Virus record (IMG/VR): IMGVR_UViG_3300048837_000193
Location: 1-42,265 of that record
DNA: 42,265 nucleotides
Strand: one strand, 5' to 3'
DNA from: a virus
Part shown: one piece after another, positions 1-42,265 of the stretch
How positions within the stretch are numbered: position 1 is the first letter of the stretch
How the letters are laid out: every line of letters begins with the position of its first letter
Notes under the pieces: model-generated
The model's database searches: none
Told to the model about the DNA's origin: nothing
Seen by the model: only the letters and a program-made list of their open reading frames with translations
Position numbers and translations under genes: made by a program

Positions 1-127
1 GGTGGCTTCAGTGAGCAGGTAGACCGAGGCCGCCGCGGCGGCGATCACCTTGTTGTCGTCTCCGACCTTGCCGCCCCACCCTGGCCGGTCGGCCAGGCAG
101 TTGTAGGTGGTCACCCACAGCTTCGTG
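1..127. repeat. 127-bp terminal direct repeat, left copy
   Basis: These bases are identical to 42139-42265. An exact overlap of 127 bp equals a common maximum assembler k-mer and lies inside a single coding frame that continues across the joint. It therefore marks a circular assembly (unique length 42138 bp) rather than a biological terminal repeat. A true direct terminal repeat of this exact length is possible but less likely. Confidence 0.93.
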
Positions 128-594
128 ACCTTGCCGGGCTTCGGTGGCGCCGGTGTGGCGCTGGCCAGCCTGAAGCCAGGCAGGCGCCGGATCCCGGCGT
201 AGTACTTGCGGGTCTTCCAGTAGCTGAGCGTGGTGGCCACGACGCCGGATGACTTGCCGCGCGCCTCGATGATCCGCCAGTCACCGTTCGAGAGCTTCTG
301 CGTGAGCACAGCCACATGGCCGATGCCGTTGGAGCGGGCCGGGTTGTTGCGGAGGTAAACACAGTCGCCCACTGCGGGCTCACCCTTGACCGCCTTCGAG
401 CGGTTGTACAGCCCGGCCGCGGTGTCGTCGCCCATCACGAACGCGCCGGTCTGGTTGTTCAGCCAAATGATGAGCCCGCTGCAGTCATGCGCCGAGGGAT
501 TGCCGCCCTTGTAGGGGACGGGCTGGCCGAGGACGTAGCGCTTGCCGACCTGCTGGGCGGCCAGGGCGGCGTACTGCGCGGCGGTGGCGGTCAC
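1..594 (-). CDS. Endolysin, NlpC/P60 peptidase half (gene continues at 41605-42265)
   Basis: This is the N-terminal part of a 375-residue protein split by the window ends. It starts with GTG at 594, in a GTGA overlap with the stop of the upstream 45-aa gene. Residues 1-145 look like an NlpC/P60 (C40) cell-wall peptidase: catalytic Cys38 in HDCSGL, His93 in GIGHVAV, and a probable third polar residue Glu110 in IIEARG. Such enzymes cut peptidoglycan stem peptides. A Pro-rich linker (about 146-158) leads into a nuclease-fold domain encoded at 41605-42265. There is no signal peptide, so export needs a holin, and one is encoded directly downstream at 41331-41591. The gene is intact; it only appears truncated because the circle was opened here. 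Confidence 0.88.
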   Translation of the reverse strand, partial: MTATAAQYAALAAQQVGKRYVLGQPVPYKGGNPSAHDCSGLIIWLNNQTGAFVMGDDTAAGLYNRSKAVKGEPAVGDCVYLRNNPARSNGIGHVAVLTQKLSNGDWRIIEARGKSSGVVATTLSYWKTRKYYAGIRRLPGFRLASATPAPPKPGKVTKLWVTTYNCLADRPGWGGKVGDDNKVIAAAAASVYLLTEAT

Positions 595-728
595 TGGTCC
601 TCCTCGGTCTCGTCGTCGGTCGGCTCTTCCCAGTCGGTGGAGATCTCGACCACGCCGGCGGGAGTGCCGGGGTCGTCGGTGGTCTCACCGAGGTCGGCGT
701 CGAGGGTGCGGTCGGTGTCATCGGGCAT
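591..728 (-). CDS. Small acidic protein of the lysis region (45 aa)
   Basis: ATG at 728 follows the Shine-Dalgarno sequence CTGGAGGA. The TGA overlaps the GTG of the endolysin gene (GTGA), so the two are translationally coupled. The product is very acidic, rich in Asp, Glu and Thr, with no membrane segment or known motif. I do not recognise it. Its position just before the endolysin and after two membrane-protein genes suggests, only by context, an accessory role in lysis. Confidence 0.6.
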   Translation of the reverse strand: MPDDTDRTLDADLGETTDDPGTPAGVVEISTDWEEPTDDETEEDQ

Positions 729-12932: not shown

Positions 12933-14120
12933 TTAGAGCGCGAGGCCGCGGAGCACGCCGTGCGCGAACGGGTTGCCGTAAGCCAGCCCGATCTCGCCGT
13001 AGATCTGCGTCTTCTCGGCCGCGCCGGTCTTCGCCAGCGCCTCCTCGAAGAGCACGCCCTTGCCGGGGATGGACAGGAACACCGGGCTCAACTGCTCGGC
13101 GGACGAGATCACGATCGCATCGGCAGGCAGCGCCCGCTCGATGACCACGTTGAGCAGCCCGAAGTCGGTCTGAAGGGTCTGGAGGTTCAGACCGGCGACG
13201 TTGCGGGTGCCGGCGTAGGTGTTCGCCTTGCCGTACAGCGCAGCGTAGACCGCGGTCAGCTTCGCCTTCTGCGTGGACGACACGAACATGGTCGCGGTGT
13301 CGCCCTCGGAGATGCCGCCGTTGTCGAAGATCGCCTGCGCCAGCTGGTTGATGAGCGTGTCGGTCAGGGCGGTCGCCGCCTTGATGTAGGCGATCCCCGA
13401 CTGACCAGTGCCCACGGTGAGCGCGGTGCCGCCCTGGGTGAGCGCGACCTTGAACGAGTCGGTCGCCTTGTTCACGACGTAGTAGGCCACGTCGTGCCGC
13501 AGTTCGGCCGGGGGCGCGGTGAACACGATCCGGTCATTGTTGGCGAGCCCGGTGGCGGTCTCCGAGATGATGTCCGAAGCACCGGTGGACAGGCCGCTCA
13601 CTACGGTCCCGCCGAACTTGTTCCCGGCAGGGATGACCGACAGCAGGCCGCCCATCTTGCGGGCGACGGTGTTGTCACTCGGCGAGTTCTTCACCGAATG
13701 CCACATGGCGTAGTTCACATCACGGGCGATGGTCTTCAGCGCCAGCTCGACCTGGTGCGCGTGCTCGTCCACGACCGGGTTCGCGGAGCCGTCCACGTTC
13801 GCGGTCGCGTACTGAGCGGTTGCGGCCTGCTTGGTGTAGCTGGTCGCGACCTGCTCCTGGAAGATCTGGCACTGGTTGACGTAGTTCGCACGCACCCGAG
13901 CCTCAGCGTCGGGCGCGTCGGCGCCCTCCAGTCGGGCACGGATCGCAGGGGCGCGGAGATCCTCGGCCTGCCACTCGAAAGCGGCCGCCTTAGTCTCCTT
14001 GCCGCCAGCGATGCCGCCGGCGAGCGACAGCAGCGGGGTGTCGTAGGGGGTGAGCCCGATCAGCTCGCCGTGGTAGTTCGGCAGCGACCAAGTCGTGCCG
14101 ATTCCGGTGATTCCGGACAT
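12933..14120 (-). CDS. Major capsid protein (HK97 fold, DUF5309/SU10-like)
   Basis: 395 residues. The start (NYHGELIGLTPYDTPLLSL) and the segment KAAAFEWQAEDLRAP are characteristic of SU10/DUF5309-type capsid proteins. A Gly/Thr-rich insertion at about 168-248 (including YYVVNKATDSFKVALTQGG) probably forms an extra surface domain. The C terminus IYGEIGLAYGNPFAHGVLRGL is the final strand of the fold. It is preceded by a scaffold gene and followed by a strong hairpin and the connectors. No protease gene is visible, so maturation may not need one. Confidence 0.88.
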   Translation of the reverse strand: MSGITGIGTTWSLPNYHGELIGLTPYDTPLLSLAGGIAGGKETKAAAFEWQAEDLRAPAIRARLEGADAPDAEARVRANYVNQCQIFQEQVATSYTKQAATAQYATANVDGSANPVVDEHAHQVELALKTIARDVNYAMWHSVKNSPSDNTVARKMGGLLSVIPAGNKFGGTVVSGLSTGASDIISETATGLANNDRIVFTAPPAELRHDVAYYVVNKATDSFKVALTQGGTALTVGTGQSGIAYIKAATALTDTLINQLAQAIFDNGGISEGDTATMFVSSTQKAKLTAVYAALYGKANTYAGTRNVAGLNLQTLQTDFGLLNVVIERALPADAIVISSAEQLSPVFLSIPGKGVLFEEALAKTGAAEKTQIYGEIGLAYGNPFAHGVLRGLAL

Positions 14121-19324: not shown

Positions 19325-19483
19325 GAGATCACTCCCATCGCAGGCATCTGCTGAGCGGTCGCCGTGCGCTGACTGGGCGACGGCCCCTCGGGTCTAGCAC
19401 CCCCGCCCCACCCGGCCGGAGTCCGACCGCCGGGGTGCTCGTGGGGACGGCATGGGCGGGGGTGGTCTGTGGTTGCCGACCCG

Positions 19484-19566
19484 CGGAAGATGAGGGAATC
19501 GAACCCCCGAGCGGTTTCCCGCCAGCCGTTTTCGAGACGGTGTCCTCGACCAACCGGACATCTTCC
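19484..19566 (-). tRNA. tRNA-Ser(CGA)
   Basis: Acceptor GGAAGAT/ATCTTCC, D arm, anticodon loop CTCGAAA (anticodon CGA, reads UCG), long variable arm with hairpin GCGG-gaaa-CCGC as in class II tRNAs, T loop TTCGATT, discriminator G. No CCA is encoded. The anticodon stem has one A-C mismatch at its base. Confidence 0.88.
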
Positions 19567-19570
19567 AGAG

Positions 19571-19654
19571 CGGAGAGCAAGGGACTCGAACCCCTGAGCG
19601 CCGGAGCGCCACACCGCTTAGCAAGCGGGCTCCTCGACCAGCCGGTCGCTCTCC
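19571..19654 (-). tRNA. tRNA-Ser(GCT)
   Basis: Acceptor GGAGAGC/GCTCTCC, anticodon loop TTGCTAA on stem CCGC/GCGG (anticodon GCT, reads AGC/AGU), long variable arm GCGC-tccg-GCGC, T arm AGGGG-TTCGAGT-CCCTT, discriminator G, no encoded CCA. It is four bases upstream of the CGA tRNA, so both are probably cut from one late transcript. Confidence 0.9.
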
Positions 19655-36670: not shown

Positions 36671-37882
36671 CTACCCGCCCCGCCGTATCCGCCTGATCTT
36701 CATCGCGCGCCTGCCCTCGGTCGGCGCGTCGAGCATGCCCAGCCGCTCGACCACTCCGGCCATGTGCGCGCTGGCCACCTCCTGGTAGCGCATCGCCATC
36801 GCCGGGGTGGTGTGGCCGGCCATCGCCTGTAGCTCGCGGATCGTGGCTCCCGCGGTCGCTGCGTAGGTGAGCCCGGTGTGCCGCAGGTCGTGGAACCGGA
36901 AGCTGGGGTGCCCGATCTTGCGACGGGCGCGGTCCCAGGCCCGCCACCACGTCCCGTCGTGGATGTGTCCGCCGTCGGTGGCTGAGACCAGCAGTCCGTC
37001 AGGGCCTGGCCGGGCGTGGTCGTCGAGATGTGCGCGCAGGCGGGCGACCATCGGCGCCGACAGCAGGATCGTCCGCATCCCCGCGTCGGTCTTGGTCTTG
37101 GTGGTCTGGAGTTTGCCCTCGGCCCTGACGACGGCCTGCCGGACGCGGATCACGGGCGGGGTCGCGTCGAGCAGCACGTCGCGGCGCCGCAGCTCGCGGA
37201 CCTCGCCGGACCGCAGCGCGCACCACGCGCCGAGATGGACGCCGATGGCCCACTGCTCGGGCATCGCGCGGGCAGCGGCATTGATCTCGGCCGGGGTCAG
37301 CGGCTCGATGGACCGCTCGGCACCGGTGCCGCCCGCGCCCTTGATGTGGCACGGATTGGCCGCGATCACGCCGTCGTCCACCGCGAAATTGAGCATCGCA
37401 CGCAGAGACTGGTAGGCCAGGTCGCAGGCCCGCTCGTGGTCGTGGTCGAGCTTGTGCCACCACGCCCGGATCTTCTTGTCGGTGAGGTCGGCCACCTTGA
37501 TGTCGCCGAGGGCGGGCGAGCCGTCGAAGTCGAGCACCCTCATCCTCATTGCCTGCCGGTACTTCTCCGCGGTCGTGGCGGTGATGTCGCGGGTGGCGCG
37601 CTTGGTCGCGATCCAGTGGTCGGCGTACTCCCGCACGGTGCGCTTGTCGCGGACGGCCTTCGGTGCAGCCTCGGCGCGGACCTTCGGCGGCTTCCACGCC
37701 TCGACTCCGACGAGGGCGAGGTAGCGGCGCTCGTCTCGCAGCCAGCCCTCGGCGTCCTCGCGGCGGTCGTAGGTCAGCGGCGAGGAGTGCCGGTCGCCGT
37801 CCGGGCCGAGATAGCTGGCCCCGTAGCGGCCGGACCGCCACCGCCTGATCTTGCCGAAGTCCCGCCGATCCTGGTCTGCCAT
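36671..37882 (-). CDS. int: Tyrosine recombinase integrase
   Basis: 403 residues from ATG 37882 (RBS GGGGGAGGG; an upstream in-frame GTG at 37912 is less likely). N-terminal arm-type DNA-binding domain (RRWRSGRYGASYLGPDG), SAM-like core domain (TVREYADHWIATKR onwards), and catalytic domain with Arg in CALRSGEVRELRRRDV, HxxR in HDLRHTGL, His/Trp position in AGHTTPAMAM and nucleophile Tyr in MRYQE. Active sites complete. attP lies right upstream (37911-38129), the standard position. Confidence 0.95.
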   Translation of the reverse strand: MADQDRRDFGKIRRWRSGRYGASYLGPDGDRHSSPLTYDRREDAEGWLRDERRYLALVGVEAWKPPKVRAEAAPKAVRDKRTVREYADHWIATKRATRDITATTAEKYRQAMRMRVLDFDGSPALGDIKVADLTDKKIRAWWHKLDHDHERACDLAYQSLRAMLNFAVDDGVIAANPCHIKGAGGTGAERSIEPLTPAEINAAARAMPEQWAIGVHLGAWCALRSGEVRELRRRDVLLDATPPVIRVRQAVVRAEGKLQTTKTKTDAGMRTILLSAPMVARLRAHLDDHARPGPDGLLVSATDGGHIHDGTWWRAWDRARRKIGHPSFRFHDLRHTGLTYAATAGATIRELQAMAGHTTPAMAMRYQEVASAHMAGVVERLGMLDAPTEGRRAMKIRRIRRGG

Positions 37883-40076: not shown

Positions 40077-40745
40077 TCAGAGTCCGGCGAGGATTAGCAG
40101 CAGCGGGGTGGCCGCGGTCTTGCGGCCGATGCTGTCGGGACCGGAGATGTGCTCTTGGTCGGCGGAGGCGTATCCGCTGTAGAGGTGCTCGACCGTTTGC
40201 CCGGAGACCACCGTGGTGACCCGGTTGCCCTCGGGGTCGGTGGACAGTGCGCGGGCGATGTCCCACAGTCGGCCGGTGGGGCCGTACTTGGCGCGGACCA
40301 GTTCGTTGTAGGCCATCCGCAGAGTGTTCGCGGGGCCGTCCTCATCGACCTCCATGACGATGGTCTCGGTCGCCGGGATGAAGGTCTTGGCCGGGTAGTC
40401 GGCGATCAGCCCATCGATCACGGTCTCATAGGCGGCGAAGAGCTGCGCCGGGGTGTAGCCCGAGGTCGCCCGCAAGTCGGCGTAGCAGAATTTCAGCACG
40501 AAGACATCGGCGTCGGCGTGCAGCCCGCCGCGGATCATCGAGTCGAATTCCGTGATCTTGCCGAGCCCGTCGCCGTTCTCCCACACGTACCAGTGGCCCA
40601 GGTAGCCGCCGGTCGGTGGGATGGTGCCGGTCTCGACATCGATCACCAGCGGGTCGGGCTGGCCCAGGTCGTCGGCGAGGGCGTTGGTGCCCTGGATGAC
40701 CTGCCAGCCGACCGACTGGTGCGCGAAGATCGTGCGCTGGGACAT
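40077..40745 (-). CDS. SGNH hydrolase-like protein
   Basis: 222 residues from ATG 40745. FAHQSVGWQVIQG near the N terminus and FVLKFCYADLRATSG in the middle are the paired motifs of one SGNH-hydrolase family, with TFIPATETI as a later strand. Could deacetylate or cleave cell-surface glycan esters in the host coat. No RBS precedes the ATG, and family-like sequence (ELDAAAFAAA) continues upstream in frame to a stop at 40803; the real start may be CTG at 40772. Confidence 0.68.
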   Translation of the reverse strand: MSQRTIFAHQSVGWQVIQGTNALADDLGQPDPLVIDVETGTIPPTGGYLGHWYVWENGDGLGKITEFDSMIRGGLHADADVFVLKFCYADLRATSGYTPAQLFAAYETVIDGLIADYPAKTFIPATETIVMEVDEDGPANTLRMAYNELVRAKYGPTGRLWDIARALSTDPEGNRVTTVVSGQTVEHLYSGYASADQEHISGPDSIGRKTAATPLLLILAGL

Positions 40746-41252: not shown

Positions 41253-41327
41253 TCAGTAGATGATGAGCATGAGCAGGGCAATGACCAGCCAGGCCGCCAC
41301 GATCAGCGCGACGACCCGGCGGGACAT
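41253..41327 (-). CDS. Single-TM micropeptide (24 aa)
   Basis: ATG at 41327 immediately after the holin gene (3 bp gap). Sequence is MSRR followed by one TM helix over residues 5-24. The holin-adjacent place suggests an antiholin or holin partner, but at 24 residues this may not be translated. Confidence 0.4.
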   Translation of the reverse strand: MSRRVVALIVAAWLVIALLMLIIY

Positions 41328-41330
41328 GGG

Positions 41331-41591
41331 TCAGTCCTCGGCGATTCCGGCGGCGATGTACTCCTCGGGGACGCCCTTGGAGATGATCGACAGGTACGAC
41401 GCGGCGCCGGCCAGCAGGGCGGTGACGATGCCGCCCGCGAGGCCGAGGCCGAGGCCGAGCGCCCAGTCTCCGGAGAGGGTGACGGCGATCGCGGAGGTGG
41501 GGATGGCGGCGGACAGCGACTGGGCGGCGGTGCGGACGAAGCCACGCTTGGCGGCGATCCGGGTGGCGGTGGGGACAATCTCGGTGGACAT
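41331..41591 (-). CDS. Holin
   Basis: 86 residues from ATG 41591, following the endolysin stop by 13 bp, RBS AGGAGG. A basic amphipathic N terminus (TRIAAKRGFVRTAAQSL), two hydrophobic segments (about 26-40 and 43-70, the second Gly/Leu-rich) and an acidic end (PEEYIAAGIAED) are the layout of an actinophage holin. It would form pores for endolysin export. Confidence 0.78.
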   Translation of the reverse strand: MSTEIVPTATRIAAKRGFVRTAAQSLSAAIPTSAIAVTLSGDWALGLGLGLAGGIVTALLAGAASYLSIISKGVPEEYIAAGIAED

Positions 41592-41604: not shown

Positions 41605-42265
41605 TCAGGTGGTGGGAATCGCGGGGATGGCGGCGTGGGCCCGGACCGCGAGGTGATCCGAGGCGGTGCCGGGGTTGTGGATCTCGGTCTTGGTCCAGGA
41701 GCCGCCACGGATCAGCAGGTAGTCGAGGCGCCGGCCATGATCGGTGGTGGCCTTGGTGCTGGCGGCCGTGAAGCCGTACGGCTTGGCCCAGGCCTCGACC
41801 GATTCGGAGTTGAAGTCGCCGCCGATGATCACTGGCAGGGTCTTGTCGATCTCGCCCATGAGCTTCACGAATGCCTTCTTGCGCGAGGCCTCGTCGGCGA
41901 GCTTCTTGGGCTGCAGGTGCACGGTGACAAACTGGATCTTCTGCCCGGTGACGCGGTGGGTCAGGATCGCCAGCACTGCGCCGTGATAGCCGCCGAGGCT
42001 GATTGCGTCCTTGGTGGTGTGGGCCTGCTTGGTGCGGTCGAATAGGATGGTCTGGTCGTGGTCGTCGGTGCGGTTCCACACCAGCCAGCGGGCCGCGCCG
42101 CCCTTCTTGGCTTTGCGGATCGCGTTGCGTATCCGCTTGGTGGCTTCAGTGAGCAGGTAGACCGAGGCCGCCGCGGCGGCGATCACCTTGTTGTCGTCTC
42201 CGACCTTGCCGCCCCACCCTGGCCGGTCGGCCAGGCAGTTGTAGGTGGTCACCCACAGCTTCGTG
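41605..42265 (-). CDS. Endolysin, C-terminal endonuclease/exonuclease/phosphatase (EEP) domain (continues from 1-594)
   Basis: Residues about 161-375 of the fused protein carry all recognisable EEP (DNase I-like) motifs: Asn165 in TTYN, Glu196 in LLTEA, His272 in VTVHLQ, Asp306 and Asn308 in GGDFNS, Asp337 in RLDYLL, and Asp359-His360 in ASDH. The active site therefore seems complete. EEP enzymes cleave phosphodiester or phosphomonoester bonds in DNA, RNA, inositol phosphates or sphingomyelin-type lipids; the substrate cannot be told here. Fusion to a peptidoglycan peptidase suggests either DNA clearance at lysis or attack on a phosphate-containing envelope polymer or lipid. The frame is continuous with bases 1-594 through the repeat. 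The holin gene follows at 41591. Confidence 0.85.
   Translation of the reverse strand, partial: TKLWVTTYNCLADRPGWGGKVGDDNKVIAAAAASVYLLTEATKRIRNAIRKAKKGGAARWLVWNRTDDHDQTILFDRTKQAHTTKDAISLGGYHGAVLAILTHRVTGQKIQFVTVHLQPKKLADEASRKKAFVKLMGEIDKTLPVIIGGDFNSESVEAWAKPYGFTAASTKATTDHGRRLDYLLIRGGSWTKTEIHNPGTASDHLAVRAHAAIPAIPTT
42139..42265. repeat. 127-bp terminal direct repeat, right copy
   Basis: Exact copy of bases 1-127. Joining the two copies restores one uninterrupted 375-codon endolysin frame (594 down to 1, then 42138 down to 41605), which supports circular closure. Confidence 0.93.

Follow-up and report, generated by a model that had tools for sequence, protein, structure and literature searches.

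A predicted two-enzyme phage endolysin joining an NlpC/P60 peptidase to an EEP phosphoesterase domain, and the recurrence of the EEP module in other wall hydrolases

The window analyzed here is the whole 42,265-nt viral record IMGVR_UViG_3300048837_000193, whose ends carry an exact 127-bp repeat (Table 1) showing that the genome is circular (or terminally redundant). When the circle is closed, a single minus-strand open reading frame of 375 codons plus a stop runs over the linear contig end (594→1, then 42138→41605); window positions 1–594 cover residues 1–198 of its product only. The encoded protein joins an N-terminal NlpC/P60 peptidase to a C-terminal EEP domain, and both domains score above the curated Pfam cut-offs (NLPC_P60, residues 24–129; Exo_endo_phos, PF03372, residues 185–360, E 5.7e-8, 33.2 bits vs a cut-off of 24.5). 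The 375-residue fusion proposed in an earlier note on this DNA was thereby confirmed, and all ten residues that the note had named were found in place.

Table 1. Features of the lysis locus in the window (42,265 nt).
Feature	Position	Strand	Basis or remark
End repeat, copy 1	1..127	.	Identical to 42139-42265
EEP domain part 1, residues 155-198 (Asn165, Glu196)	1..132	-	Pfam PF03372; residue alignment
Flexible Ala/Pro linker, residues 147-154	133..156	-	AF2 pLDDT <50 at 147-154; sequence
NlpC/P60 (C40) peptidase domain, residues 1-146 (Cys38, His93)	157..594	-	Pfam PF00877, E 6.5e-8; AF2 block pLDDT mostly 84-96
45-aa acidic protein; stop overlaps lysin start (GTGA)	591..728	-	Sequence
Ribosome-binding site GAGGAGG, 4 bases 5' of lysin GTG start	599..605	-	Sequence
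97-aa protein, one N-terminal membrane helix	789..1082	-	Same type at L033 4992-5300
143-aa protein, three membrane helices	1079..1510	-	Same type at L033 4567-4995
86-aa putative holin, immediately downstream of fused lysin	41331..41591	-	One strong hydrophobic helix; position
EEP domain part 2, residues 199-375 + stop (His272, Asp306/Asn308, Asp337, Asp359/His360)	41605..42138	-	Pfam PF03372; VIA-align
End repeat, copy 2	42139..42265	.	Identical to 1-127

An assembly artefact joining two separate genes would fit the position of the fused gene across the contig end as well as the repeat length, 127 being a common assembly k-mer. However, the IMG/VR relatives L002, L003/L004, and L033 (three distinct relatives, L003 and L004 being the same gene in two contigs) carry both domains on other contigs in one uninterrupted frame across the equivalent point, at 53–59% full-length identity to the window protein. 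Thus, the fusion is real, and end-joining is an extremely improbable explanation that is, for practical purposes, already refuted. The same three relatives dispose of the reservation in the earlier note that homologues might always be two separate genes; in the prophage copy L077 (5511–6943), the Amidase_2 part and the EEP part are read from two frames that overlap, reflecting split genes, a frameshift, or a sequencing error.

The fused gene occupies a lysis-cassette position beside membrane-protein genes. The putative holin was assigned from its hydrophobicity and position only, its r1t-holin Pfam match being sub-threshold, and the 97-aa protein is likely an accessory of the lysis cassette. 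In L033 and L002, too, a small acidic ORF of similar type comes before the fused gene, and the gene order in L033 is a three-TM protein, a one-TM protein, an acidic small ORF, the fused lysin, and a two-TM protein. A 24-aa strongly hydrophobic peptide, possibly a small membrane peptide, is encoded on the minus strand in the interval that separates the putative holin from the gene after it (41253–41327).

The catalytic Cys38 and His93 of the peptidase half are invariant across 23 sequences. The closest matches to this half are the NlpC/P60 domains of Propionicimonas/Micropruina-type wall hydrolases (up to 79% identical), which suggests, on sequence grounds, that the host of the phage belongs to the Micropruina/Propionicimonas type. 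These secreted-type host proteins have a Glucosaminidase + NlpC/P60 + PG_binding + Ig-repeat architecture (e.g., L005), so that PG_binding and Ig repeats follow the NlpC/P60 domain where the window lysin has the EEP domain. In the NlpC tree, phage domains interleave with host wall-hydrolase domains, and L033 lies across a well-supported branch (100/99) from the window protein, L002, and L003; the NlpC half thus appears to derive from the host or to be exchanged with it. A weak NCBIfam match to EntFM (33 of the 720 bits needed) reflects the shared NlpC domain only and was rejected.

For the second half, the full active-site set of the EEP superfamily (Asn, Glu, His, Asp-x-Asn, Asp, Asp-His) is present in the window protein. 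Asn165, Glu196, His272, Asp306, Asp337, Asp359, and His360 are kept in all 12 intact fused copies, with Asn308 replaced by Ser, Val, or Ala in four of them and Ser358 by Thr in one; the active site is lost in L044 only, where most catalytic residues are gone and the domain is still present in its genome. Since the site is kept though pairwise identities drop below 30%, this conservation argues for selection on catalysis. An AF2 model built from 23 sequences (mean pLDDT 82, pTM 0.58), which supersedes an earlier model from 3 sequences (pLDDT 59), has a low-confidence linker at residues 147–154, which is the expected picture for two tethered domains. The modeled EEP half matches the Bacteroides EEP 3g6s with Z 23.8 and rmsd 2.5 over 208 residues (VIA-align), Tdp2 with Z 23.1, the mannosyl-6-phosphatase Bt3783 with 22.4, Nocturnin with 22.2, CNOT6L with 21.9, neutral sphingomyelinase with 20.2, and B. 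cereus sphingomyelinase with 18.6. The closest of the listed structural matches are uncharacterised EEPs from bacteria together with Tdp2, a sugar phosphatase, and Nocturnin; the second domain is predicted to adopt the standard EEP phosphoesterase fold, an alpha/beta sandwich. Together with the Pfam match and the active-site set, the model bears out the claim that the lysis enzyme carries a complete second catalytic domain. The window domain shares with the PF03372 superfamily the fold (Z 18–24) and the N/E/H/D/D/SDH active site, whereas sequence identity to these proteins is only 14–21%, and the Gln usual before the catalytic Glu is Thr, Cys, Ser, Asn, or Val in most fused copies. The nearest sequence matches are generic, and a phmmer comparison of the EEP half with PDB sequences gave helical chance matches only. 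The modeled fold by itself fits a nucleic acid, a sugar phosphate, or a lipid as substrate and gives no preference for any of them.

A search with the EEP half alone revealed C-terminal EEP domains also on Amidase_2 and VanY/M15 lysins in Micropruina/Propionicimonas-type genomes, which brings the peptidoglycan hydrolase types carrying the module to three, NlpC/P60 included. The amidase type comprises Amidase_2+PG_binding+EEP proteins (L042 from Micropruina glycogenica, L075, and L076) and an Amidase_2+EEP protein (L080); the VanY/M15+PG_binding+EEP type was recognized by Pfam in L043 and L089 (the VanY score of L089 being just below the cut-off) and by reading in L088 and L078, and L044 is a decayed M15-type copy with EEP. 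PF03372 scores lie above the curated cut-off in L003, L033, and L042 and below it in L002 and L076. L043 and L089 are located in clear prophages with head and/or tape-measure genes. L042, L044, and L076 stand alone in the chromosome near tRNA genes; in two genomes, the Amidase_2+PG_binding+EEP genes (L042 9715–11499 and L076 6545–8339) directly adjoin tRNA-Met without an evident prophage, and these copies are possibly domesticated lysins or element remnants. Because of this isolated location and the lost active site of L044, not every EEP-fused copy need be a working phage lysin.

At E ≤ 1e-12, an EEP profile matched 9 of 198 genomes in the family to which M. glycogenica belongs, whereas a class-wide sample of 394 further genomes (7 candidates per genome scored) gave no match. 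The matches include non-lysins, such as a host Ig-repeat protein with an EEP domain (L090, a contig-end fragment), and the weaker ones (L051–L074) proved mostly to be ordinary secreted EEP proteins and were set aside. A protein of ~1,041 aa with two EEP domains (PF03372), a C-terminal M23 peptidase, and, by eye, a transglycosylase-like stretch is encoded at L082 2162–5296 and L083 2372–5494, where, as shown for L083, it immediately follows a VirB4-like conjugal ATPase; it is a parallel EEP-wall hydrolase fusion in a likely conjugative element. In the EEP tree, M15-type domains do not form a single group: one pair clusters with the amidase types and another with the NlpC types. The EEP domains of L003 and L033 are sisters (92/88), while their NlpC halves belong to different clades. 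The modules thus appear to be shuffled between lysins, with moderate tree support. Contig scans for viral relatives with L035-type and L089-type proteins found none.

The same two-domain order was thus found in L002, L003/L004, and L033. In tblastn searches of 50,697 phage records with the full protein and three EEP types, no record matched the EEP domain, the single hit being insignificant (E 0.4). An Amidase_2+EEP query recovered Streptomyces and Arthrobacter endolysins, with alignments confined almost entirely to the amidase part; the longest such match, Geonosis, has Amidase_2 and PG_binding domains and no EEP by Pfam. Streptomyces phage Yosif has a stand-alone EEP protein, and the 20 kb around the endolysin of that phage contain no gene of matching length. 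The EEP half matched no PHROGs family convincingly. The usual description of an endolysin is a peptidoglycan hydrolase with a binding domain, and modular actinophage endolysins (NlpC/P60, Amidase_2, or M15, often with a binding domain) share with the window lysin the hydrolase domain and the adjacent small membrane-protein genes; the window lysin differs in its C-terminal EEP phosphoesterase domain with an intact active site. In the main text of a survey covering 2,628 endolysins of uncultured viruses, neither a nuclease nor a phosphatase is mentioned (PMC5968864), and the open-access main texts searched gave no description of an EEP endolysin, which may still be annotated elsewhere. The suspicion in the earlier note that this is not a standard endolysin design was therefore well founded, and the design is recurring and apparently undescribed.

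We consider it very probable that the window protein is a genuine endolysin with a catalytically competent EEP domain. Because of the gene position, the wall hydrolase partner, and the intact EEP site, a two-enzyme endolysin is the best reading. The holin would open the membrane first, and the NlpC/P60 half would then cut peptidoglycan peptides, as its family suggests; the C-terminal EEP half, as a metal-dependent phosphoesterase on a flexible linker, would cut a phosphate bond of the host envelope, for which a wall polymer containing phosphate, a lipoglycan, or a phospholipid is the likeliest carrier, and the envelope would be taken apart more completely. Here we infer both the EEP activity and the envelope location of its substrate. 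An envelope substrate, to which we give about an even chance, is favored over DNA because the EEP domain is joined to wall-associated proteins (phage lysins, the host Ig-repeat protein L090, and the double-EEP/M23 protein by the VirB4-like ATPase), because its net charge in fused lysins ranges from −2 to +17 and is not uniformly basic, and because a 720-aa tail-type protein encoded downstream of the lysin in L003 (7966–10128) carries a GDPD (glycerophosphodiester phosphodiesterase) domain (PF03009, E 1.2e-11), which hints that the host surface bears phosphodiester polymers.

Alternatively, the EEP half may be a DNase that degrades host DNA spilled at lysis, lowers viscosity, and lets the progeny disperse, with packaged phage DNA safe in capsids; we regard this as possible and distinctly less probable than even. 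Many secreted EEP proteins are DNases, which speaks against an envelope target, as does the basic character of four NlpC-type EEPs (pI 9.6–9.9), which would suit DNA; the NlpC half is equally basic. The structural neighbors include the DNA/RNA enzymes Tdp2 and CNOT6L, and secreted DNases such as Xds belong to PF03372 (PMC12833820). However, the EEP domains of several fused relatives are neutral to acidic, and the double-EEP wall hydrolase is linked to conjugation, where a DNase beside a VirB4-like ATPase could endanger the transferred DNA; moreover, no DNase I or exonuclease III chain occurs among the 50 structural matches listed, an absence that does not amount to exclusion. In another explanation, which we consider improbable, the EEP fold is a wall-binding domain with incidental enzymatic residues: it sits C-terminally, in the usual place of a binding domain, the NlpC type has no other such domain, and L044 retains the domain despite the loss of most active-site residues. 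Against this, none of the 12 intact fused copies has lost the active site, although pairwise identities drop below 30%, and the amidase and M15 types already have a PG_binding_1 domain besides EEP. Of the two substrates that the earlier note had considered for the EEP half, DNA and an envelope phosphodiester, the comparative evidence leans toward the latter.

The comparison with LysB in that note is weak. The inferred hosts, of the Micropruina/Propionicimonas type, are not known to make mycolates. LysB cleaves the esters of mycolic acids, and phages whose hosts are mycolate-free, such as those of Arthrobacter, normally lack it (PMC5513430); a literal LysB replacement is therefore unlikely. The mycobacteriophage LysB, a mycolylarabinogalactan esterase, resembles the window lysin in concept, as a further activity that degrades the envelope at lysis; however, it is a separate esterase gene acting on mycolates, whereas the window protein has a phosphoesterase fold fused to the endolysin, its second domain being EEP and not a serine-esterase (cutinase-like) domain. 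That no LysB-like gene is present holds only in the strict sense; close to the lysis genes, a 222-aa protein (40077–40745, minus strand) with HQSVG near its N-terminus and DQEH near its C-terminus is SGNH-esterase-like by motif and is a candidate esterase; in PHROGs it matches a lysophospholipase L1-like esterase only weakly (E 0.008), and it has no Pfam match.

Somewhat more tentatively, at a little short of an even chance, we propose a family of dual-enzyme endolysins in Propionibacteriales phages, in which an EEP domain shuffled among at least three hydrolase types would break a phosphate-linked wall polymer or lipid; lysis would need a second type of bond to be cut, in a role analogous to that of LysB in hosts without mycolates. 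If a second enzyme of other chemistry is conserved and shuffled, some phages would have to break a phosphate bond (or DNA) as well in order to exit, which would point to a barrier, hitherto unrecognised, in the envelope of this actinobacterial group. For the window lysin, the catalytic residues and the relatives are named, so that its target, whether wall polymer, lipid, or DNA, is now testable.

Elsewhere in the window, minus-strand genes at 12933–14120 and 36671–37882 encode an SU10-type major capsid protein (PF17236, E 4.6e-78) and a phage integrase (PF00589), a combination from which the phage is probably temperate. Two tRNA-Ser genes (CGA and GCT) lie side by side on the minus strand at 19483–19654.
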